From a virus: a stretch of 37,693 nt of DNA. Positions 2,085-26,463 of this stretch are shown here, in pieces. The DNA is taken from positions 1-37,693 of IMG/VR virus record IMGVR_UViG_3300042892_000537; one strand, given 5' to 3'. The notes below the pieces were generated by a model. It did no database searches. It had not been told where the DNA came from and was given only the letters and a program-made list of their open reading frames with translations. The number at the start of each line of letters is the position of its first letter. Position 1 is the first letter of the stretch. The position numbers and the translations under genes are program-made.

Positions 2085-2383
2085 ATTACAGAAAAGGCGA
2101 AGAGGTCCATTTTCGTTCTAGATGCGATTCGTGCATTCGTAAAAAAAGAGGGTTAAAACCATATCGCCCAAAATGGATGGAACAAAACTATAAAAAGAAA
2201 CCACACTGCGAAAAGTGTGGCTTCAAAGCAAAGTTAAAAGAGCAGTTATTTGTCTACTACATCGATGGTAATTTTAATAACAACAACGCTCTTAACTTAA
2301 AAACTATATGCGCTAACTGTCAGTATGAAGTTGCCCGAGAGGGTTTAGGATGGCGTCAAGGCGATCTTGTACCTGACTATTAG
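2033..2383 (+). CDS. HNH-like zinc-binding small protein
   Basis: A 116-residue basic protein with four CxxC motifs: CKAC and CDSC in the first half, CEKC and CANC in the second. The second half has the shape of an HNH (beta-beta-alpha metal) motif: CEKCG, then YYIDGNFNNNNALNLKTICA, then NCQ. In active HNH enzymes the position before IDGN is usually histidine and the segment ends in CH; here they are tyrosine and glutamine. It may therefore be a zinc-binding relic or a nuclease with altered chemistry. The ATG at 2033 overlaps the GIY-YIG gene, with a GGAG about 10 bases upstream, so the two are probably translated together. Its 3' end overlaps the opposite-strand dNMP kinase gene by 71 bases. 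The function is unknown; the fold assignment is inference from the motif pattern. Confidence 0.7.
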   Translation: MDRRPLCKACLSKPAAINYRKGEEVHFRSRCDSCIRKKRGLKPYRPKWMEQNYKKKPHCEKCGFKAKLKEQLFVYYIDGNFNNNNALNLKTICANCQYEVAREGLGWRQGDLVPDY

Positions 2384-3014
2384 TAATATTAGCTTCAATC
2401 TGTTGATACAATTCTTCAATGGTTCCGCTATTGTTTAACACCACATCAAACTTCTGTCCTACCCAAGCCGTTTCGCTGGCATGAACTCCTAGTTGGTCTA
2501 TACGATGTTTGCTTAATGCCCACGATGTATTTCTTGTAGCACCTTTGTTCATACTTTTAGCATCATTAAACCACTCGGGTTCTGGACCACGTTTGATACG
2601 TACTACCTTGCCACCTGCATTACGTATAGCTTTAATTTCATTAGGAAAGCGACAGTCTGTGATAACAATATCATCTTTACTAGATCTTAGACGATTTTCT
2701 AAACTAGCTACCCACATGTCATCATGGAACCCTTTACGCACTACCTCAGTTCCCCAATACTGTAGAACCCAACGTGGAGTTACATCACAGCCTAGTCGTT
2801 TACTCCACCATTCGTCTTTGGTTTCGCGCCAGATTCTTGATTGATTAGTACGCCCTTCTAACAGTTCTCGATCCCATCCAAATACCTGGCTCACTGCGGC
2901 TTTAAGGCTGTTAGCAAAACTTTCTCTGCGGAATTGGTGAAAATTGACCAGATAGTCTGCAACCGTATCTTTACCTGAACCGATAAAGCCTACGATACCG
3001 ATGATTTGACTCAT
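2313..3014 (-). CDS. 1: Deoxynucleoside monophosphate kinase (gp1-like)
   Basis: This enzyme phosphorylates dNMPs (in T4: dTMP, dGMP and hydroxymethyl-dCMP) to dNDPs, supplying nucleotides for phage DNA synthesis in the cytoplasm. The protein has 233 residues; T4 gp1 has 241. The N-terminus carries a Walker A P-loop, GFIGSGKDT, at residues 9-17, then DYLV and FA(N)SLK as in phage dNMP kinases. A DCRFPNE motif typical of the family follows mid-protein, with VVRIKR after it. The start is the ATG at 3014, with AAGGAG 6 bases upstream. A sigma70-type promoter (3040-3068) precedes it, so it is probably an early gene although surrounded by late virion genes. Its C-terminal 23 codons overlap the convergent HNH-like gene. 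Confidence 0.9.
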   Translation of the reverse strand: MSQIIGIVGFIGSGKDTVADYLVNFHQFRRESFANSLKAAVSQVFGWDRELLEGRTNQSRIWRETKDEWWSKRLGCDVTPRWVLQYWGTEVVRKGFHDDMWVASLENRLRSSKDDIVITDCRFPNEIKAIRNAGGKVVRIKRGPEPEWFNDAKSMNKGATRNTSWALSKHRIDQLGVHASETAWVGQKFDVVLNNSGTIEELYQQIEANITNSQVQDRLDAILNPLGQLHTDS

Positions 3015-3039
3015 TGAAAACTCCTTAATTGATAATACT

Positions 3040-3068
3040 ATTTTACGAGGTTATTAACTGAGAGTCAA
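3040..3068 (-). promoter_or_regulatory. Sigma70-type early promoter of dNMP kinase
   Basis: On the minus strand TTGACT (3068-3063) is followed after 17 bases by TAAAAT (3045-3040). Five of six bases match the host consensus in each hexamer, with optimal spacing. It lies in the intergenic gap after gp13. No late promoter precedes this gene. Confidence 0.65.
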
Positions 3069-3074
3069 TGGGTT

Positions 3075-3992
3075 TTAGCCCATTATCCACCACATTGGTT
3101 GACCACCATCAACATACATACGAATTTCTTCGTCAAGTTTGTCAATTAGGGCTTGACCTTCTGTTTTAAGTGCTGTACCGTTAAGTTGAGTACCGCCCTG
3201 TGGTCCTGCTATACTAGCAAATTTTTCACGTGCTTGGCCTATGCTCATCATGGTTAGACCATAAGCATAGTCTTGGATCCAAGGAAATGCCTGCGGATCA
3301 TTTAATAAGACAATATCTGGTTTGTAGTTGTAGGTCCAAAGTAATACGCTTTCTTTTACTATTTCTGTTCCTTGGATCCCACCCCATGGTACCTTACGTA
3401 CCAAGGTAAGTTTTTTAGTTACTTTGTTCCAAGTAAAGTTCATAAAGCCACCAAACATTTTCATAGCTAACTTTTGATAGTCTACAAACAATTCATAGTT
3501 TGCTAGTCCACCAACCCGACCTGCTACTAGCATATAAGTGTTCAAGTATCCACTAGCAAATGGTTCAAATTGGCTAGCAGTCGTACCTGTAACACTACCA
3601 ATACCGCGACGGTAAACTTGTTTGACGTCCATAATATAACTAGGTAAGATATATTCTTGTGTTTCTGGATAAATGTCTAAAAAGCAATAACTTTCTTCAA
3701 CGGCATTTGAACTGCGTTGACGATAGCGTAATAGAGCTTGTTTAATTCCCATGTCAAAGTGTTCTTTGTCGGCTTCAACATCAATCATACCGTAGCCTAG
3801 ACGTAGACGTATATAGTCAGTGATCGCATTTGATTGCGATGCTACTGTGTCTAGTTGTGCTTGTAAATTTGCATCAAACGCAATATGTCCTGCACCTGTG
3901 CCGGTAGATGGATTGTATAAACTTTTGGTAGGTATACTGTTTGTTGCTGTTAGTCCGGTGGTTGCCGATACGTTTGCTGGTAGATCAGACAT
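3075..3992 (-). CDS. 13: Neck / head completion protein (gp13-like)
   Basis: A 305-residue protein, close in length to T4 gp13 (309). With gp14 it closes the filled head and joins it to the tail. The N-terminal 50 residues are low complexity. A helical region follows (DYIRLRLGYGMIDVEADKEH, then IKQALLRYRQRS) of the kind found in head-tail adaptor proteins, and then an EESYCFLDIYPETQEYILP segment that I associate with gp13 of marine T4-like phages. The adjacent gp14 and gp15 genes, on the other strand, support the call, since 13-14-15 are clustered in T4. The start is the ATG at 3992 with AGGAT 7-11 bases upstream. The late promoter and ribosome binding site lie inside a hairpin (3998-4037) that would silence translation of early read-through mRNA. 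Confidence 0.72.
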   Translation of the reverse strand: MSDLPANVSATTGLTATNSIPTKSLYNPSTGTGAGHIAFDANLQAQLDTVASQSNAITDYIRLRLGYGMIDVEADKEHFDMGIKQALLRYRQRSSNAVEESYCFLDIYPETQEYILPSYIMDVKQVYRRGIGSVTGTTASQFEPFASGYLNTYMLVAGRVGGLANYELFVDYQKLAMKMFGGFMNFTWNKVTKKLTLVRKVPWGGIQGTEIVKESVLLWTYNYKPDIVLLNDPQAFPWIQDYAYGLTMMSIGQAREKFASIAGPQGGTQLNGTALKTEGQALIDKLDEEIRMYVDGGQPMWWIMG

Positions 3993-3997
3993 GTAAA

Positions 3998-4037
3998 TTA
4001 TCCTGTTATCGTGTATTTATTATCGACAACAGGATAA
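3998..4037 (-). promoter_or_regulatory. Hairpin masking the gp13 ribosome binding site, with late promoter in loop
   Basis: On the minus strand the 5' arm TTATCCTGTTGTCG (4037-4024) pairs with the 3' arm CGATAACAGGATAA (4011-3998). This gives a 14-bp stem with one G-U pair and a 12-base loop. The 3' arm contains AGGAT, the gp13 ribosome binding site. The loop contains the late promoter AATAAATA (4021-4014). A transcript coming from the upstream early gene forms the hairpin; one started at the late promoter (near 4008) lacks the 5' arm and leaves the site free. Confidence 0.75.
4014..4021 (-). promoter_or_regulatory. Late promoter of gp13
   Basis: AATAAATA on the minus strand differs from TATAAATA only at the first base. 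The predicted start near 4008 gives a 16-base leader beginning UAACAGGAU, which carries only the ribosome binding site half of the hairpin. Confidence 0.7.
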
Positions 4038-4065
4038 GTTTGGCTTTACGCTACCTTGAGGGGGA

Positions 4066-5259
4066 TTAGATTACTTTAAGTAGGATAGTATCAGCATTGA
4101 TACGTCCGTTGAGTTTAATTTCTGTGGTTTTAATATTTTCTAAGAACTTGCGTAGTTCTACTTTGTTACTGGCTAAGAATGCTTTAACTTGTTCTTCAGG
4201 TTTACGCAGAGTTTTTTGTGTACTCTTAGTTTCACTAAATCCCGTGATAGTTGTACCTTTAACCCCAAGCACACCACCCTGGTCTTCAGCTACATACTTG
4301 CCTAGCTTACGATTTTTAACATTATAAACCCATAGCTGTTCTGCACCAACAATGTCTACTGGATTGATTGATACCAATTTCATACCAGCATCTTGTTTGA
4401 GATATTTCAAGCTCTTCACTAGTTTTTCTTTAGCTGGCGGCTTACGTACTGCGGCTTTTTTAGTTGCCTTCTTAGTTTGATTGTAAGCAGTTAAGTCAGC
4501 AAACAGTTTGTCATAAAAAGCATCATAACGTTTATAATCTGCGGCTTTCATATACGCATACGCATCTTTAAGATCTTCATCTTTAGTTGTGCGTGCTTCA
4601 CGCACTTCTGCACAGCGTGGTTCAAACACTGCTGATATCTTACCAATCAATACCTGTGGAACATTATTTTTAATCAAATATTCGTAGGCTTTAGGATCTA
4701 CAGTTTCTCCTGCGAATAATGCATCTTCTAATACTTCAAAATAAAGTATATGCTTCTTAGCCACTTCATTCATACGATCTTGGATCGTTGGGATATAGAC
4801 TTCTGGTTTCTTTACTTCTGTCTTTGTTTCAAAATCTTCATCATTATCTGCTTTAAGCAATAGCACCCGCTGAACTGCATCAAGGATATATTCTACATGG
4901 CGGTCACGTAAAGGCATGCCACGTTCGTGTGCTTTAATTAATGCACAAACTGTAAATGGAGTTAGACTATCAGCTGAACGTTGGTAACGATCAATGGTGT
5001 TTTTATCTAACTTATGTAAGCCTTCGTTACCTTCATGTTGACGTAGCCAAGCCACAACATACTTCTTAAGATCTTTAGTGCTGTAGTAATAATTATAGTA
5101 ACGAAAACTATCACGTAGATGGTGGTCAAATTCTTCATTTGAAAAAGTCAAAGCGCGATCATAATCCCACGTGGGTTCTTTGCCTGTGTATTTTTCATCG
5201 CTAAAGTTAATATTACTAACTTTTGCTTTCTTTTTCATACCGTCAATTTTGATTGCCAT
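4066..5259 (-). CDS. Conserved phage protein of unknown function, early expressed
   Basis: I do not recognise a characterised family. The 397-residue protein is charged and probably mostly helical. It has an N-terminal KKKAKVSNINFSDEKYTG segment and an aromatic-rich stretch around residues 50-72 (FRYYNYYYSTKDLKKYVVAWL). A lysine/alanine/proline-rich basic linker spans residues 263-282 and separates a C-terminal domain ending in KLNGRINADTILLKVI. No signal peptide or membrane segment is visible. From memory, similar proteins occur as hypothetical proteins in marine T4-like phages. The start is the ATG at 5259 with GAGAGG 6 bases upstream and a near-perfect sigma70 promoter (5280-5307). It is therefore likely an early gene next to neck genes. 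Basic linker and charge would suit a nucleic-acid-associated role, but that is only a guess. Confidence 0.85.
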   Translation of the reverse strand: MAIKIDGMKKKAKVSNINFSDEKYTGKEPTWDYDRALTFSNEEFDHHLRDSFRYYNYYYSTKDLKKYVVAWLRQHEGNEGLHKLDKNTIDRYQRSADSLTPFTVCALIKAHERGMPLRDRHVEYILDAVQRVLLLKADNDEDFETKTEVKKPEVYIPTIQDRMNEVAKKHILYFEVLEDALFAGETVDPKAYEYLIKNNVPQVLIGKISAVFEPRCAEVREARTTKDEDLKDAYAYMKAADYKRYDAFYDKLFADLTAYNQTKKATKKAAVRKPPAKEKLVKSLKYLKQDAGMKLVSINPVDIVGAEQLWVYNVKNRKLGKYVAEDQGGVLGVKGTTITGFSETKSTQKTLRKPEEQVKAFLASNKVELRKFLENIKTTEIKLNGRINADTILLKVI

Positions 5260-5279
5260 AATATCCTCTCGTTTCTTAT

Positions 5280-5307
5280 ATTATATATACTTTTTGTAAA
5301 AAGTCAA
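5280..5307 (-). promoter_or_regulatory. Sigma70-type early promoter of 397-residue gene
   Basis: TTGACT (5307-5302) is followed after 16 bases by a perfect TATAAT (5285-5280) on the minus strand. The -35 box includes the TGA stop codon of the upstream 88-residue gene. Predicted start is near 5273, giving a short leader with GAGAGG. Confidence 0.72.
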
Positions 5308-5570
5308 CCGTTTAATAGTACGCCAAATGTTAGATATTGCTCATAATGGGCTATTTCTTGATTAATCTGCGCTAGTAATTCTGCATGCTTTTGGGTTTGA
5401 CGCCCCTGTCTACGACAATTGATTTCTTCTTCGCTGAGCTTTTTAACCATGGCACCTATAGCATTACTCATTTTCAGCATATCGCCTGTATAAGTTTTCA
5501 TCTTATGCGCAGGCTTTTCTAATGCTATCTGCACTTGTGCCCAATCTAAACTTGTAGTAATCTCAGCCAT
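5304..5570 (-). CDS. Small unknown protein, early and probably leaderless
   Basis: An 88-residue protein starting MAEITTSLDWAQVQ, probably all helical with a heptad-like C-terminal half (KKLSEEEINCRRQ to NQEIAHYEQYL); it could form a coiled coil. I do not recognise the family. The frame is open 6 codons further upstream to ATGs at 5588 and 5585. However, a strong sigma70 promoter (TTGACA, 17 bases, TATACT) has its -10 box ending 5 bases before the ATG at 5570. Transcription would then start at or beside this ATG, and the upstream ATGs would lie outside the mRNA. No Shine-Dalgarno sequence precedes either start. It is followed by the 397-residue early gene, and is divergent from gp14. Confidence 0.72.
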   Translation of the reverse strand: MAEITTSLDWAQVQIALEKPAHKMKTYTGDMLKMSNAIGAMVKKLSEEEINCRRQGRQTQKHAELLAQINQEIAHYEQYLTFGVLLNG

Positions 5571-5575
5571 AATAC

Positions 5576-5604
5576 AGTATAACATCATTTGGGCGGATTG
5601 TCAA
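5576..5604 (-). promoter_or_regulatory. Strong sigma70-type early promoter
   Basis: A perfect TTGACA (5604-5599) is followed by a 17-base spacer and TATACT (5581-5576) on the minus strand, the best consensus promoter seen in the window. The -10 box is 5 bases from the ATG at 5570. It lies back to back with the late promoter of gp14 at 5609-5616. Confidence 0.75.
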
Positions 5605-5608
5605 CGGC

Positions 5609-5616
5609 GATAAATA
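5609..5616 (+). promoter_or_regulatory. Late promoter of gp14-gp15-NUDIX unit
   Basis: GATAAATA on the plus strand; predicted start near 5622. The short leader contains TTAGGAT before the gp14 ATG at 5638. Confidence 0.72.
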
Positions 5617-5637
5617 CTAGATAATTAGGATTAAATA

Positions 5638-7047
5638 ATGCCACGTTTAAGTTTATGGCGCCCAAACAAGGGTAACGACTACAAGTTCTTTGATCAACGT
5701 ATGAGTGAGATGTTTACGGTTGGCGGAACAGATGTCTATATACATAAGTATCTTGGTCCAATTGACCAACCATTTACCAGCAATACTGAACCCGGTACCA
5801 CTGGCATCACCGCAATTCAAGATTTACTATTCTTAGAAAACCGCGATCGTAAGTATGATAGCGATGTATATAGTCTACGTGCTATGTATCGCATGAGTGA
5901 TAACGATTTTGATTTAACCCAATTTGGATTATTCCTAACTGGTGATACCTTGTTTATGACCTTTCACTTAAATGACATGGTTGAAACATTAGGACGTAAA
6001 TTAATGGTTGGCGATGTATTAGAACTCCCCCATCTGAAAGACCTATATCCATTAGATGAGGGCCTAGCAGTAGCACTTAAACAATATTATGTAGTACAGG
6101 ACAGCACCAGATCAGCTGAGGGATTCGCTCCAACTTGGTATCCACATTTATGGCGTATCAAAGTTGCACCATTGGTAGATAGTCAAGAATACAAAGATAT
6201 CATTGCACAGATTGCCGCCGGCGATAATACCACTGATTCAATTCAAAGTGTACTAAGCACCTACGATAAATTAATCAGCATCAACGATGCTATCGTACAA
6301 CGTGCAGAACAAGATGTTCCGGCTAGCGGATATGATACTAGCAGTATCTATGTTGTACCGGTTAATCCCGACGGATCGGCAGCAGACCCGGGTGCCTTAG
6401 ATGCTAGTGATATGAGTCCGGATGCTAGTGATACAGCCAACGACGCTAGTGCGCAGACTTCAACATCAACATTAAAAGTCAAAGGGTATTTGACCAGTGA
6501 TGCGTTACCACCAAATGGTGCAACTGTAGCCGCAGGAATTGGATTCCCATCAGGACCAGGAGTAGGTGATTTCTACCTACGTTTAGATTATGTACCTAAT
6601 AGACTATTCCGTTACGATGGCCGTCGTTGGGTCGCTGTAGAGGACGCTGTGAGAACAAACTTAACACCGGGTGCGGCTAACAAAACTCAACTTAGCAGTT
6701 TCATTAATGACACAAATGCCAATTACAGTAATGCATTAGGCTATGATGCTATACGTGTTGCTAACCCATACACACCGCCAGCTAACTCACATACTACATC
6801 ATTTACATTAAGCAGTGAAAGTGTTATTACTAACATTCCTTACAGAAGCACCTATGGCGTTAAAACTTTGGTAAACAGTCATATTGTACCTAACACAATG
6901 TCTAATTCTAGTGGCAATGTTGGATTTGCATTAACTACTGCAAACATCTTAGCCATTGGCAGTTTGTTAGAATACACTGTTTATGCTAATGTAAGACTTG
7001 AACGACAAAGCCTAAGTCAGGCTCTTAGACCAACGGCGGATAACTAA
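5638..7047 (+). CDS. 14: Neck protein (gp14-like)
   Basis: This is the second neck protein, which with gp13 completes the head after packaging and provides the tail attachment site. The N-terminal half is strongly diagnostic of the T4 gp14 family: KGNDYKFFDQRMSEMFTVGG, VYIHKYLGP, then IQDLLFLENRDRKYD, FDLTQFGLFL, LELPHLKDLYPLDEG, YYVVQDSTRSAEGFAPTWYP and LVDSQEYKDI. The protein has 469 residues against 256 in T4. The extra C-terminal part has a low-complexity Asp/Ala/Ser segment near residues 240-280 and then a domain with FYLRLDYVPNRLFRYDGRRW. From memory, marine T4-like phages also have this extension. The stop overlaps the gp15 start by one base (TAATG), so translation is probably coupled. 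Confidence 0.93.
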   Translation: MPRLSLWRPNKGNDYKFFDQRMSEMFTVGGTDVYIHKYLGPIDQPFTSNTEPGTTGITAIQDLLFLENRDRKYDSDVYSLRAMYRMSDNDFDLTQFGLFLTGDTLFMTFHLNDMVETLGRKLMVGDVLELPHLKDLYPLDEGLAVALKQYYVVQDSTRSAEGFAPTWYPHLWRIKVAPLVDSQEYKDIIAQIAAGDNTTDSIQSVLSTYDKLISINDAIVQRAEQDVPASGYDTSSIYVVPVNPDGSAADPGALDASDMSPDASDTANDASAQTSTSTLKVKGYLTSDALPPNGATVAAGIGFPSGPGVGDFYLRLDYVPNRLFRYDGRRWVAVEDAVRTNLTPGAANKTQLSSFINDTNANYSNALGYDAIRVANPYTPPANSHTTSFTLSSESVITNIPYRSTYGVKTLVNSHIVPNTMSNSSGNVGFALTTANILAIGSLLEYTVYANVRLERQSLSQALRPTADN

Positions 7048-20488: not shown

Positions 20489-22057
20489 CTATGAAACTGC
20501 ATAACTAATACCCGATACTGAAGTTCCTGTATAGGACAAGTTTTTAGTATAAACCTTACCTAAATCATTACCGGTAATTATCAATGAACTCAACTGTGTA
20601 CCTGTGTAGTAAAATGATTTAACTATAATATCAGCACCTGCTGGAGAATAAACTACATTTGAAATAAATGATCCACTGTAGTTAATCACGTAGGGATATG
20701 CTTTGAGATTCTGAGCAATAGTTTCAAATGATTCATTAAAAACTCCACTGATTGCACCAAAGCTAACCGGAGCACCATTGGCATAGTAGTATTGATTAGT
20801 AGCAATAGACTGTGGGCGTAGTTGTCCACTGATCGTTACCACCGGAGCAGTTAACAAGTTACTTGTAATTTGTCCTGCATCTAATGTTTGGAAATATCCT
20901 GTTTTCCATTGTACTGTTGGAGATCCAATACTGTAGGCAGTGTTTCCAAAGGGCATTAAATTGCCTTTGATGTTAACATTGGCTCCATCTAATGTTACCG
21001 CAGCAAATTGATAAATCAATTCTGTAGCTGAGTTGATACTGGCACTGATACGTCTGATTTCAACAACATCAGTTTGTAATGGTGCTTCAGCAAATGTTAA
21101 TAAATTATCTGCAACTGTATATGCAGTACCCGGTTGTTGTAGAGTACCGTTGATACTTACTAGAATACCTGCGGCTGTGGTATTGGCGGCTAACGTATAA
21201 GTTGTGCTAGTTCCATCAGGATCAATAATCGCTGATGTGATTGTTGCCGCGCCCGGAACTTCCCAGGATGCGCCGTTGAAATATTCAAAACTATCTGTTT
21301 CAGTATTAAATCTAATATAGCCTTGCTGTGCATCTGATGGTCTAGTAGATAGATTACCTACCGGAATTTGTAAAGCTGTAGTGCCAACAATTTTTACTAT
21401 GCCGTCACTGGTTGGATCTAATAGAATATTACCTAAAGATTCACTTGATGTTATAGTGTTACCATTGAATACAATATTACCCAATCCTGCTTGCGTTGGT
21501 AATCCTAAATTTCCGCTGTAAACAGCGCCACTGATGTAAACACTGTTGCCTGTAAAGCTAATAGGGCTCGCACCATTATATGGTGTATTATTACTGTTAA
21601 AGTTTAAGATACCTGATTGATAGTCAAATACCCAAAGGTCGTTGCTACCACTACCTGTGGCAAATACTTGTGTGCCTTTGCCGGCTACATTGGCCGCATT
21701 ACCACTTGGTGCGATATAAACTTTGATCTGATATGTTGATCCAAACTCTGGTGGTACCCAAAATGTCTGACCTGTTTGCCAAGTTAAGGTTGGTGTTGGT
21801 ATACCTGCTGTGCTAGTACATTCTACAGGAAATGTAGTTGGATAAACTGTTACGACACTGCTGTTACTGCCTGGAATAACATTAGCAATTAGGTCAGATT
21901 GTTGCCATATCTTATCACCGCGAAGTAGTAGAGGGCTTGCAACCGGCTCGTTAGTTGCGTCAATGTTGCCAGAGATATCAGTCTTAGCGGCACCATAGAC
22001 TATCTTCTTCCAAAGGTAGTCTACTTTTTGATTATCTGATGCGCTTTGTATAGGCAT
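20489..22057 (-). CDS. Virion structural protein of marine T4-like phages
   Basis: A 522-residue protein. Its N-terminal 150 residues match a conserved family I recall from marine T4-like phages: ASDNQKVDYLWKKIVYGAAKTD, SPLLLRGDKIWQQSD, WVPPEFGSTYQIKVYI and SNDLWVFDYQSGILNF. The middle carries the shared pair of modules: GYIRFNTETDSFEYFNGASW and then DPDGTSTTYTLAANT...VSINGTLQQPGTAYTV...LTFAEAPLQTD. An AYSIGSPTVQWKTGYF segment resembles the DLGS..YW.TGYF motif of its upstream neighbour. The ATG overlaps the stop of the 972-residue gene (TAATG), giving coupled translation. It is probably assembled with that protein in the baseplate periphery or fibres; the exact role is unknown. Confidence 0.78.
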   Translation of the reverse strand: MPIQSASDNQKVDYLWKKIVYGAAKTDISGNIDATNEPVASPLLLRGDKIWQQSDLIANVIPGSNSSVVTVYPTTFPVECTSTAGIPTPTLTWQTGQTFWVPPEFGSTYQIKVYIAPSGNAANVAGKGTQVFATGSGSNDLWVFDYQSGILNFNSNNTPYNGASPISFTGNSVYISGAVYSGNLGLPTQAGLGNIVFNGNTITSSESLGNILLDPTSDGIVKIVGTTALQIPVGNLSTRPSDAQQGYIRFNTETDSFEYFNGASWEVPGAATITSAIIDPDGTSTTYTLAANTTAAGILVSINGTLQQPGTAYTVADNLLTFAEAPLQTDVVEIRRISASINSATELIYQFAAVTLDGANVNIKGNLMPFGNTAYSIGSPTVQWKTGYFQTLDAGQITSNLLTAPVVTISGQLRPQSIATNQYYYANGAPVSFGAISGVFNESFETIAQNLKAYPYVINYSGSFISNVVYSPAGADIIVKSFYYTGTQLSSLIITGNDLGKVYTKNLSYTGTSVSGISYAVS

Positions 22058-24975
22058 TATGACACCGCCAATGTGGAAACTGTTTGTCCACTTGCTAGAG
22101 CAATTCTAATTAATGCAACGTTGTTGGTTGCTGATGACATACTGACGGTTCCTAATGTCATTGTAAATGTTCCATTTAGGGCTACGTTGGCTGCTATCAG
22201 TGCACCACTGCCACAACCATCACTACCATTACCGCCTGCTCCTGTATTACTTCCTGGAACTCCACTACCAGCATAGCTAGTCGTAGCAGTTAACCAACCG
22301 TTAAGTCCGCTAGTTGAATCGATAGTTGTGCCAGGCGCCGCTACCCATACACCAGCAACACCGGCTGGTGCTACGATATTCAAGTTAAAGTTTGAAACAC
22401 CAGTACGTTGGAAACCCATAGTAAAGTATTGGTAACTACCACCATCACCGCTGCGATCTGGTCCTACTGGTAGGTAACCTGTGCTGTAATTATTTGCTGT
22501 CCATCTTAATACACCAACACGGATAGTTGCTTCTTTGGTTCCTGCTACGCCCGGATCACTGGCTTCGGTGTAGACGTTTGGCGCAGTCATAAAGTTTGTC
22601 AGTCTCGCATACAGTGGAGTATGTATAGTATTAGCTAAGAAGTATGTGCTACGCACCGCTGGATTAGTATTAGCACTTGTGTTAGCACTGATAGCAATTT
22701 CACTGATACCCGTTTGGCTTGCTGTATGCACTTGGACATTGACACCCGTTTCAGCATAAGCACTGGTACCATTTACATTAGTTACTACGATTCTTAAGTT
22801 GGCTACACTACGCACACTTGCTTGGTTAATGGCTATTGTTAGGTTGCCTGCACTGTAAGCCGATACATTGCCGGTACCTGCGACGGGTGTGCCACTGGCT
22901 AGTGCCGGACTACTAACATTACTTAAACTCGCGTATGGATGAGCATTGGCTAAGATTACATTACCTGAGGATCCTTCTTTAACTGTACCTGTTACCACAA
23001 ATGCCACGTTGGCTGTATTGTTCCAAGTCTGTCCAATCCAACTGTTTATAGTAACATTCTGCCACCATAGTTGTGGGCTACCAGTATTGAAATATGGTAT
23101 GCCTGAAATGTATCTGTATGTGCCTGGCGCTTTGATTGCCAATGTACCTGCTGTGACTGTTGGCACCGTGGTCACATCATCTTTGACAAACTCAATATTG
23201 GCTGTGATGCCTGTTGAGCTGTGATTTAATCCAAATCTATTGATACCAAATGGTATGATGTCTCCACGTGCTACTACGTTAGCACGGAATCCCCAATAGT
23301 ACCCTGGATAGTATGTTGAGCTGGCAAATGTAGTTGTGGCGCCTGCTGATGTTAATAAATTATAATCACTAAATCCTAATATGCCAAGATTGCCTGTGAC
23401 TGTTGGTGATGTAGTTGCGGCTATGTTAGCATTGCCATATACCGCGCCATTTACCACTGCCTGTAGATAACCAATATTTGCGCTCCAGGTAAAACTTGAA
23501 CTTACGTTGCCTGAGTTAGCTGATATCAGTGTTGATCCTGTTGCTATGGTTCTGCTTACTGATGCGTTGGCAGCTAAAGCAGTTCCTCCTGTGTTGTCTG
23601 TAGCACTGGCCGCTAGTGTAGCATTAGTTCCAACGCTACCCGTAAATGTTAGTGTTTTAGTATTCAGTCCAGCTGGAGGACTTACACTGTTACCATAGAC
23701 TTTAAGAGTTGTAGCAGTATATCTTGGTAGGATGGCCGGATTAGTAATATCGCTAGTCAGCAAGGCTAGATTAACTGACAATGTTCCTGTGCCTGTGTTT
23801 GTAACATACGTTTTATTAGCATATGGTCCTGTAGCACCGCCAGCTGATGAGTTGTTAGACACGTTAGCGTAAGTTCCATCACCCCAGTTAATACTCCAAG
23901 TTACCGCTGTAGCAGTATTGGTGTTAGTAGTTGTATTTTGTAAGTATATCACATTACCTTGTATGCTATGGAGGTCATTACCTGTTAGTGGTGCTGAACT
24001 AATATTGGCTCTAAATAATCCAAAGCCCATAGCCGGATCAGCAGCATATATACTGATATAGTTAGTTCTTACTGCGCCTGCTAGGTTACTTGGACTTGCC
24101 CCATTGGTATTTGTAGCCGTCACAATAATTGTATAAGGTGTGCCTACATTAGTAGCATAGGTATGTGTGATATTTGAACTACTTGATATGGTATTTGACG
24201 TACCATCTCCCCACTGGACTTCGTATTGATTAACGTTGCCTTGTGGTACCATAGTCAATAATATTGTTTGGCCAACACCACCAGCGGTGACATTACTTGA
24301 GAATGTAACACTACGAACAAAAGTATTTGTGAATAAATTTTGTGATACACTGTTAAGAATATCAATAGCATCTGTTACCGTGGTTGTTGTGGTAAATCCC
24401 TGATATGCGGCATTGTTGCCTATTAGGCTAGTATCAGTTGGTGTGCCTAATGAGATTAAATTACCTACACTAGATCCAGATAGTTGTGCATCAACATACC
24501 CCTTGGTTGCAGCGTCGGTGCTGTTGATTGGGCTGCCAACCCAAATAATTTGATTGTTACCGGCATTTAGATTACCGGTGGTTGTAACATTGGCAAAGGT
24601 AACTCCGCTAACAGATAGATTACCTAAAATAGTTAAATCGTTAAGTGCGCCAATTGATGTGATGTTTGGCTGTGCGTTGGTTAGTAGTGTGCCAGCTAGG
24701 TTACCAAAATAACCAGTGCGCCAATAGTTTGTAGTACTACCTAGGTCATAGCTTAAATTACCGCTGGTATAAACATAACCGTTGGTAACAAATATATTAC
24801 CAACAACTTCTAAAGTGTCTAATGGAACTTCACCAGGTAGAGTGTTAACTCCAACTCTAAAATTATTTACGTCCCAATAGAATAGGTTTTGTCCATTGGA
24901 AGAGATGTATAGATCAGTGCCTTGACGATCTAGATTTCCTAATAGAGAGTACCCCGGGACGCGACTAATTGCCAT
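22057..24975 (-). CDS. Large adhesin-like virion protein with PKD domains
   Basis: A 972-residue protein. The N-terminus (MAISRVPGYSLLGNLDRQGTDLYIS) and a DLGSTTNYWRTGYF motif are typical of marine T4-like fibre-cluster proteins. DAATKGYVDA at 154-163 is a widespread phage fibre motif. Two PKD (Ig-like) domains follow. The first has YEVQWGDGTS (WGDGT 255-259) and THTYA at 270-274; the second has SINWGDGTYA (WGDGT 364-368). PKD domains are known from surface proteins that bind glycans or proteins. The rest is Thr/Asn/Ser/Gly-rich beta structure, ending in a glycine-rich turn near 920-935. The start is the ATG at 24975 with GGAAG upstream and a late promoter at 24996-25003. A host-binding role is likely by inference. 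Confidence 0.8.
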   Translation of the reverse strand: MAISRVPGYSLLGNLDRQGTDLYISSNGQNLFYWDVNNFRVGVNTLPGEVPLDTLEVVGNIFVTNGYVYTSGNLSYDLGSTTNYWRTGYFGNLAGTLLTNAQPNITSIGALNDLTILGNLSVSGVTFANVTTTGNLNAGNNQIIWVGSPINSTDAATKGYVDAQLSGSSVGNLISLGTPTDTSLIGNNAAYQGFTTTTTVTDAIDILNSVSQNLFTNTFVRSVTFSSNVTAGGVGQTILLTMVPQGNVNQYEVQWGDGTSNTISSSSNITHTYATNVGTPYTIIVTATNTNGASPSNLAGAVRTNYISIYAADPAMGFGLFRANISSAPLTGNDLHSIQGNVIYLQNTTTNTNTATAVTWSINWGDGTYANVSNNSSAGGATGPYANKTYVTNTGTGTLSVNLALLTSDITNPAILPRYTATTLKVYGNSVSPPAGLNTKTLTFTGSVGTNATLAASATDNTGGTALAANASVSRTIATGSTLISANSGNVSSSFTWSANIGYLQAVVNGAVYGNANIAATTSPTVTGNLGILGFSDYNLLTSAGATTTFASSTYYPGYYWGFRANVVARGDIIPFGINRFGLNHSSTGITANIEFVKDDVTTVPTVTAGTLAIKAPGTYRYISGIPYFNTGSPQLWWQNVTINSWIGQTWNNTANVAFVVTGTVKEGSSGNVILANAHPYASLSNVSSPALASGTPVAGTGNVSAYSAGNLTIAINQASVRSVANLRIVVTNVNGTSAYAETGVNVQVHTASQTGISEIAISANTSANTNPAVRSTYFLANTIHTPLYARLTNFMTAPNVYTEASDPGVAGTKEATIRVGVLRWTANNYSTGYLPVGPDRSGDGGSYQYFTMGFQRTGVSNFNLNIVAPAGVAGVWVAAPGTTIDSTSGLNGWLTATTSYAGSGVPGSNTGAGGNGSDGCGSGALIAANVALNGTFTMTLGTVSMSSATNNVALIRIALASGQTVSTLAVS

Positions 24976-24995
24976 TTATCTTCCAACCTTTTTAC

Positions 24996-25003
24996 TATTT
25001 ATC
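24996..25003 (-). promoter_or_regulatory. Late promoter of 972- and 522-residue genes
   Basis: GATAAATA on the minus strand. It overlaps a perfect 12-base palindrome TTATCTAGATAA (24999-25010). Confidence 0.74.
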
Positions 25004-25010
25004 TAGATAA

Positions 25011-25469
25011 TTAGGCTAGGGTTGATATTGTTGTAGCGTATCCGTGAATTAGTGTAATTGCGGCACCGTTATTAGGTGCCGGACTGATAACGATATTGCC
25101 AGTACCATTAAATGTGTAGTTTGTACCTGGAATTTGATAAACTGTACCTACATGGACTAGAACCATTGATTCCATACCTGCTTTATAATAGTTTGTTCCG
25201 CCGTCAATTGGCCAAAACTGAGTTTGAACTGCATTACCTGTAAAGCTAGTAATAGTTGGTAGTACGTTTCCTTCTCTGGCTACAGCATTCCATACGTTTG
25301 CACCAGTTTGACCACTTATATTACCGTAATATTCTAACTTATTTGACGTTAAACTGAATCTTGTCTGACCTACTACTGCGTTTGCAGGGCCAACACTGCT
25401 AGAACCAACAGGAACGCCTAGAGCATACCCAGCAGTCTTAAATACGGTATTCTTAAGCATGTGTCCCAT
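25011..25469 (-). CDS. Small fibre-cluster virion protein
   Basis: A 152-residue protein, MGHMLKNTVFKTAGYALGVPVGSSS at its N-terminus, a form I recall from marine T4-like phages. It consists almost entirely of the two modules also found in the 949- and 522-residue proteins. These are the GQTRFSLTSNKLEYYGN...VWNAVA segment and a strand-rich domain (ITSFTGNAVQTQFWPI ... VYQIPGTNYTF ... ISPAPNNGAAITL). It begins two bases after the stop of the 106-residue gene, with AGGAA in that gene's end as ribosome site, so it belongs to the three-gene unit 26437-25011. It may be a minimal stand-alone version of the module, decorating or capping a fibre; that is inference. Confidence 0.78.
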   Translation of the reverse strand: MGHMLKNTVFKTAGYALGVPVGSSSVGPANAVVGQTRFSLTSNKLEYYGNISGQTGANVWNAVAREGNVLPTITSFTGNAVQTQFWPIDGGTNYYKAGMESMVLVHVGTVYQIPGTNYTFNGTGNIVISPAPNNGAAITLIHGYATTISTLA

Positions 25470-26455: not shown

Positions 26456-26463
26456 TATTTATC
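26456..26463 (-). promoter_or_regulatory. Late promoter of 211-106-152 residue unit
   Basis: GATAAATA on the minus strand, located between the terminator at 26481-26508 and the ATG at 26437. Confidence 0.75.

Follow-up and report, generated by a model that had tools for sequence, protein, structure and literature searches.

How could a gene for a virion protein be kept from untimely translation when it sits between two genes with early-type promoters? This question is raised by the gp13-like neck gene in the window, i.e., the whole 37.7-kb virus record analyzed here, which represents a giant relative of phage T4. The genes and promoters concerned are the following.

3075..3992, minus strand: gp13-like neck (head-tail adaptor) gene, 305 aa, phrog_211, downstream of the hairpin described below
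4066..5259, minus strand: co-directional upstream gene, 397 aa, phrog_11903 (function unknown), the proposed source of read-through
5280..5307, minus strand: sigma70-type promoter of the 397-aa gene, TTGACT-16-TATAAT (11/12 match)
2313..3014, minus strand: deoxynucleoside monophosphate kinase gene, downstream of gp13
3068-3040, minus strand: sigma70-like TTGACT-17-TAAAAT of the kinase gene

The gp13-like product matched phrog_211, "head-tail adaptor Ad2", with an E value of 1.2e-30 (the T4 gp13 family), and had matches in 59 phage records. Its best annotated relatives were encoded by jumbo phages, e.g., Atu_ph07, PA5oct, GAP32, CBB, and 121Q, at 34–43% identity. Genes for a T4-type portal (gp20) and a major capsid protein (gp23) were also present in the window. 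The sequence-only reading had stated that the 397-aa gene has a sigma70 promoter and that no terminator precedes gp13, and both statements were borne out. A minus-strand search of 2300–5700 called no terminator between the 397-aa gene and gp13; the sole terminator-like match, at 5171–5154, lay within the 397-aa gene itself.

The short interval between the two genes contained a hairpin built around a putative late promoter.

4024..4037, minus strand: 5' arm of the hairpin, UUAUCCUGUUGUCG, missing from the predicted late mRNA
4014..4021, minus strand: putative late promoter AATAAATA, in the 12-base loop 4012–4023; predicted late +1 at approximately 4008
3998..4011, minus strand: 3' arm, CGAUAACAGGAUAA, containing the ribosome binding site AGGAT (4004–4000)

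The minus strand from 4037 to 3998 reads UUAUCCUGUUGUCG-AUAAUAAAUACA-CGAUAACAGGAUAA, which gives 14 pairs (one of them G-U) closing a loop of 12 bases. The 14-bp stem over the gp13 ribosome site was thus exact to the base as first described (4037–4024/4011–3998), and the octamer was found in the loop at 4021–4014. AGGAT lies 7 nt 5' of the gp13 ATG, whose coordinates are 3992–3990. The T4 late promoter spacing rule would put the start near 4008. This predicted start falls within the 3' arm, in agreement with the earlier proposal that late mRNA would lack the 5' arm.

Folding of the leader, which had been suggested as a check, showed the stem to be stable. The 40-mer folded at −17.5 kcal/mol versus a shuffle mean of −3.41 (sd 2.01), corresponding to z −7.0, and none of 200 shuffles equaled it. 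The 40-mer alone closed 13/14 stem pairs and the longer leader closed all 14. For the long RNA, the computed cost of opening the gp13 ribosome site was 12.7 kcal/mol; for the predicted late RNA, in which the exposed site lies approximately 4 nt from the 5' end, it was 0.3 kcal/mol. A search of Rfam with the region 3850–4250 (E up to 1) returned no family matches. A chance hairpin was considered and ruled out by the z value together with the conservation and covariation described below.

The promoter identity of the loop motif was approached through its placement. In the window, 12 of the 13 ATAAATA sites lie 15–110 nt upstream of a gene on the same strand, where 0.4 would be expected; by its placement, the motif thus acts like a late promoter, a role supported at the level of sequence. 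The gene starts used for this placement were hand-picked from lists of open reading frames, and one of them (1583) had its origin in the motif scan; the total count of ATAAATA in the window was not above chance. Genes for a gp55-type late sigma factor were detected in three of 12 related records (G001, G003, and G004), the longest record included, with 49–51% identity over the C-terminal half when the CBB sigma protein served as the query. The window, itself a 37.7-kb fragment, yielded no such gene. The late-promoter identity proposed for the octamer was backed by motif placement and by the sigma genes of relatives; its first base differs from that of the T4 octamer TATAAATA, and the core conserved in relatives is ATAAATA. 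In CBB, according to the part of the paper available to us, MEME recovers an ATAAATA consensus in front of structural genes, and the phage encodes a gp55-like sigma (PMC5259590); CBB also shares the gp13 neck homologue with the window. In the same part, promoters and terminators are counted separately, and no hairpin around promoters is described (PMC5259590).

We consider it highly probable, judging from sequence, that the gp13 hairpin is a cis-acting switch of the T4 gene e type that blocks translation of read-through mRNA. Read-through, the late start site, repression, release, and the benefit of the switch are all steps that we infer. Transcripts from upstream sigma70-type promoters, that of the 397-aa gene or earlier ones, would run into gp13 because no terminator intervenes. 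Such RNA would hold both arms, the 14-bp stem would mask AGGAT, and gp13 would stay untranslated. Late in infection, RNA polymerase with a gp55-type sigma would initiate at AATAAATA in the loop, near 4008, and as this mRNA would start within the 3' arm, the stem could not form and the ribosome site would be free. The presumed benefit is that the neck protein would be absent until heads and tails are made.

The early/late switch is a textbook device of T4, operating at the genes for lysozyme, soc, endonuclease VII, and homing endonucleases. The accessible part of one report describes T4 e (lysozyme), soc, and 49 as early/late translational switches and predicts the e structure in close relatives (PMC3014915). 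The accessible part of another describes hairpins with a late promoter and a hidden ribosome site at T4 I-TevI/II/III, segB, and Aeh1 mobE (PMC2988022). Within these limits, the use of such an arrangement by T4 at gene e, I-TevI, and gene 49, stated in the sequence-only reading, agrees with these descriptions. As described there for T4 e, the gp13 ribosome site would be masked by a stem on the long RNA and the late RNA would lack the 5' strand; as in T4 e, the stem follows shortly behind an upstream stop codon. Unlike in T4 e, the hairpin would control a virion neck gene, its sequence differs, and, with covariation counted, it is kept across a much wider range of phages. With I-TevI/II/III, segB, and Aeh1 mobE, the gp13 locus would share the late promoter, the masked ribosome site, and the location within an early/middle unit (as far as the accessible part of PMC2988022 describes them), but those genes encode mobile homing endonucleases, whereas gp13 is a structural virion gene.

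Conservation was analyzed in gp13 relatives collected in two IMG/VR scans, which gave 160 rows and, after removal of truncated ones, 147 loci with 44 distinct leaders. The latter is the number to use, as numerous contigs are represented twice among the 147 loci, with different flanks. The opening-energy set omitted L049, L067, and L075, in which the contig ends within gp13, as well as loci whose leader was shorter than 50 nt. The stem, whose absence from relatives had been named beforehand as one refutation of the switch, was kept in all 44 distinct leaders. Each of them contained (A)TAAATA with a ribosome site behind it, and the opening cost dropped between the long and the predicted late RNA by 4.8–13.9 kcal/mol (median 12.5). 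In the best fold, all four core bases of the ribosome site paired upstream of the promoter in 42 of the 44.

Compensatory changes, also sought in the stems of relatives, were found. In an alignment of 45 leaders, ATAAATA was invariant (45/45) and located in the loop, and 91.3% of the cells were standard pairs. L044 was kept in this set despite its misaligned 5' arm, which lowers the pairing count. Seven of the 14 stem pairs had changed on both sides (20 cells), and none of 500 shuffles scored as high on any of five measures; sliding the partners reduced pairing to 34–59%. On the gp13 tree, nine branches carried double changes that keep the pair versus 0–2 when partners were slid by 1–3, and 200 permutations of the partners gave a mean of 1.2 and a maximum of 5. 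Among the clearest cases was L130, with G-C replaced by A-U and U-A by C-G. In L005, L006, and L010, an inserted gene of 411 aa (incomplete in L010, where the contig ends) lies just upstream, and the 5' arm differs yet still pairs. Against the switch count the poorer stems of L076/L077 and L107/L110 and the helix pair 10–63, unpaired in 20 of 45 leaders. A repeat element was rejected as an explanation: a short-arm pattern of the window stem occurred once per record in 11/11 related IMG/VR records and in 0/4 cultured phages. As a separate observation, some gp13 relatives (L146–L153) carry an in-frame insertion of approximately 90 residues (397 aa in L149 and L150 versus 305); it has the look of an additional domain and not of an intein.

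The proposed source of read-through was likewise retained. A homologue of the 397-aa gene was co-directional and within 400 nt in 138 of the 143 loci having at least 150 nt upstream; in the other five, a co-directional open reading frame lay in between or adjoined gp13. A sigma70 match of at least 10/12 was present in 34 of 50 distinct leaders of the upstream gene (24 of them perfect) versus 2.6% of shuffles, and the late motif ATAAATA in just one of the 50. In 13 of the 50, the best sigma70 match reached merely 7–8/12, and early read-through there would therefore need a more distant upstream source; by eye, this group includes genes that closely follow other coding sequence. In 18 of 41 distinct leaders, 0–11 nt separated the upstream stop codon from the 5' arm; in L044 the arm starts within the upstream gene, and in 22 of the 41, the window included (28 nt), the stop was too far upstream for translational coupling. 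Because the stop lies within 12 nt of the arm or past its start in 19 of 41 leaders, ribosomes that terminate there might melt the stem, which limits the switch account. A very similar geometry was seen in our fold of T4 e, with the nudE stop at −40 to −38 and the stem from −36. Two features of this interval were noted in passing. At approximately 4038–4065 on the minus strand, and in many relatives too, CTCAAGGTAGCGTAA between the stop of the 397-aa gene and the hairpin resembles a second copy of the 3' end of that gene (LKVA-stop), perhaps the scar of an insertion and loss. The interval also holds inserted genes, i.e., a 411-aa open reading frame in L005 and a 184-aa one in L012.

Whether such a hairpin accompanies every late promoter was addressed by a scan of units composed of a promoter, a ribosome site, and an open reading frame. 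These were ranked by the difference in opening energy between the long and the predicted late RNA, with shuffle p values set aside. A looser score, the chance of the ribosome site pairing upstream of the start, flagged too many units (43 of 119) and was replaced by this difference; under the looser score, the T4 (L182) late genes 4, 53, and 9 showed ribosome-site pairing upstream of the late start. The gp13 site ranked first of eight in the window (12.4 kcal/mol), first of 23 in G001 (12.1 kcal/mol), and first of 69 in 121Q (12.6 kcal/mol), where the tail sheath and DnaJ-like genes came next (12.5 kcal/mol each). In the parts of T4 that were scanned, I-TevII (11.5 kcal/mol) and e (9.8 kcal/mol) led 19 sites; the known switches I-TevII, e, 49, and segB were within the top eight, and soc, also a known switch, was outside them. 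As I-TevII and e rank first in T4, the measure finds known switches, soc excepted. The idea that the hairpin is generic to all late promoters was rejected, with at least 6 kcal/mol reached at only two of eight sites in the window (gp13 and, more weakly, 24975), three of 23 in G001, three of 69 in 121Q, and three of 19 in the T4 parts scanned.

The weaker site in the window probably represents a second hairpin of this kind.

24976..25023, minus strand: probable second switch-like hairpin CTAGCCT..ATAAATA..AGGTTGG, 7.0 kcal/mol difference
22057-24975, minus strand: 972-aa PKD-domain gene behind the second hairpin

A similar hairpin with a changed stem folded in most of nine relatives (L204–L212), e.g., GUCCUC..GAGGAC in L208/L209. 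The genes upstream of this second hairpin have a late-type ATAAATA at 26456–26462, which suggests that the device may silence read-through RNA of any kind, not just the early one. The original claim that gp13 is silenced on early read-through RNA needs to be modified in this respect: the switch has sequence support, but the hairpin would block all read-through and not the early one alone.

The second hairpin also bears on an alternative in which the structure acts as a filter for the gene's own promoter, so that translation of gp13 from any read-through, early or late, is blocked, the dose is set by that promoter, and timing is a by-product. The location of the 972-aa gene downstream of a late-type promoter favors such a filter, but the genes upstream of gp13 carry sigma70-type and not late promoters, and we regard it as unlikely. 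Were the inverted repeat instead a protein-binding operator in the DNA around the late promoter, its near-perfect symmetry about the promoter and the good conservation of the outer arms would be explained. The paired changes that preserve pairing as the sequence changes, the variation of stem sequence and loop length among lineages, and the constant location of the ribosome site in the 3' arm all argue against an operator, which we consider very unlikely.

We give still less credence to two further explanations. A terminator or attenuator of the upstream gene, in place of a translational device, would fit the U run behind most stems in the Rak2-like phages described below; in the clade of the window, a run of five T near the start codon was found in just one of 44 distinct leaders, no terminator match was called at the window hairpin, and a stem followed by a U run is not what the sequence there contains. 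Similarly slight is the prospect that gp13 translation depends on ribosomes finishing the 397-aa gene. The stop codon is suitably close to the 5' arm, or lies beyond its start, in 19 of 41 leaders, but it is too distant in the 22 others, among them the window, and coupling leaves the late promoter in the loop of every leader unexplained.

The proposed switch was also looked for in cultured jumbo phages. All ten Rak2-like records examined (121Q, XaC1, SE_PL, Hallingskeid, Kaldavass, XbC2, GAP32, CBB, K64-1, and SNUABM_19) had a strong hairpin of unrelated sequence before gp13 that follows the same logic: the 5' side of the stem-loop carries TAAATA, the 3' arm contains the ribosome site, and the opening-energy differences were 10.2–14.9 kcal/mol. 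For this analysis, the gp13 start codons of 121Q and Kaldavass were shifted downstream; the annotated starts (L158:2926 and L162:1414) seem to be 15–18 nt too far upstream, inside the hairpin. With these few sequences, four of eight pairs carried changes in both partners (a value reached by 22 of 500 shuffles) and the covariation score was equaled in one of 500. Most of the stems run directly into a U stretch, so they may, on this sequence evidence, also terminate early RNA. The tail sheath gene of the Rak2-like phages had its own stem of the ATCCTCC-AATAAATA...GGAGGAT type in 9/9 records with the start available (L158–L167; 7.0–13.0 kcal/mol), and in 121Q a promoter within a hairpin was also found before the DnaJ-like gene (L181:35078). 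A strong gp13 switch was missing in five other jumbo phages, i.e., Atu_ph07, Phosso, Vibrio phage 2.275, PAC2, and PA5oct. In the first three (−1.8, 0.1, and 3.8 kcal/mol, respectively), the upstream neighbor is encoded on the opposite strand. PAC2 and PA5oct had weak structure (3.3 kcal/mol each) though the upstream gene is co-directional, which counts against the switch. No late motif was found within 110 nt of T4 gene 13, whose ribosome site lay outside a nearby hairpin.

A search of the full-text literature, which covers few subscription journals, found no earlier report that places a switch of this type before a neck or tail sheath gene, or in any jumbo phage; the statement in the sequence-only reading that no description was known for a neck gene held within that scope. 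The kind of mechanism is already known, and what appears to be novel, as read from the sequences, is its wide conservation and its place on a virion gene between early-type genes. E. coli phage 121Q carries the predicted switch at both the neck and the tail sheath genes and therefore makes it directly testable; the neck gene of Sharanji (host K-12 MG1655) matches equally well, as far as the gene itself, apart from its leader, is concerned. The hairpin also accounts for the start codons that some records appear to place too far upstream.

We tentatively propose, at somewhat less than even confidence, that T4-like jumbo phages use this device as a standard way to hold late virion genes in early/middle operons, that hairpins of unrelated sequence arose or turned over at the same genes with the promoter in the stem-loop, and that the Rak2-like stem with its U stretch is maybe also a terminator. 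If this is true, one Rak2-like element would combine a terminator, a translation lock, and a late promoter. The clear selection on this arrangement at the neck gene, over a broad range of giant phages, suggests that it is a generally used answer to the placement of late genes within early transcription units.
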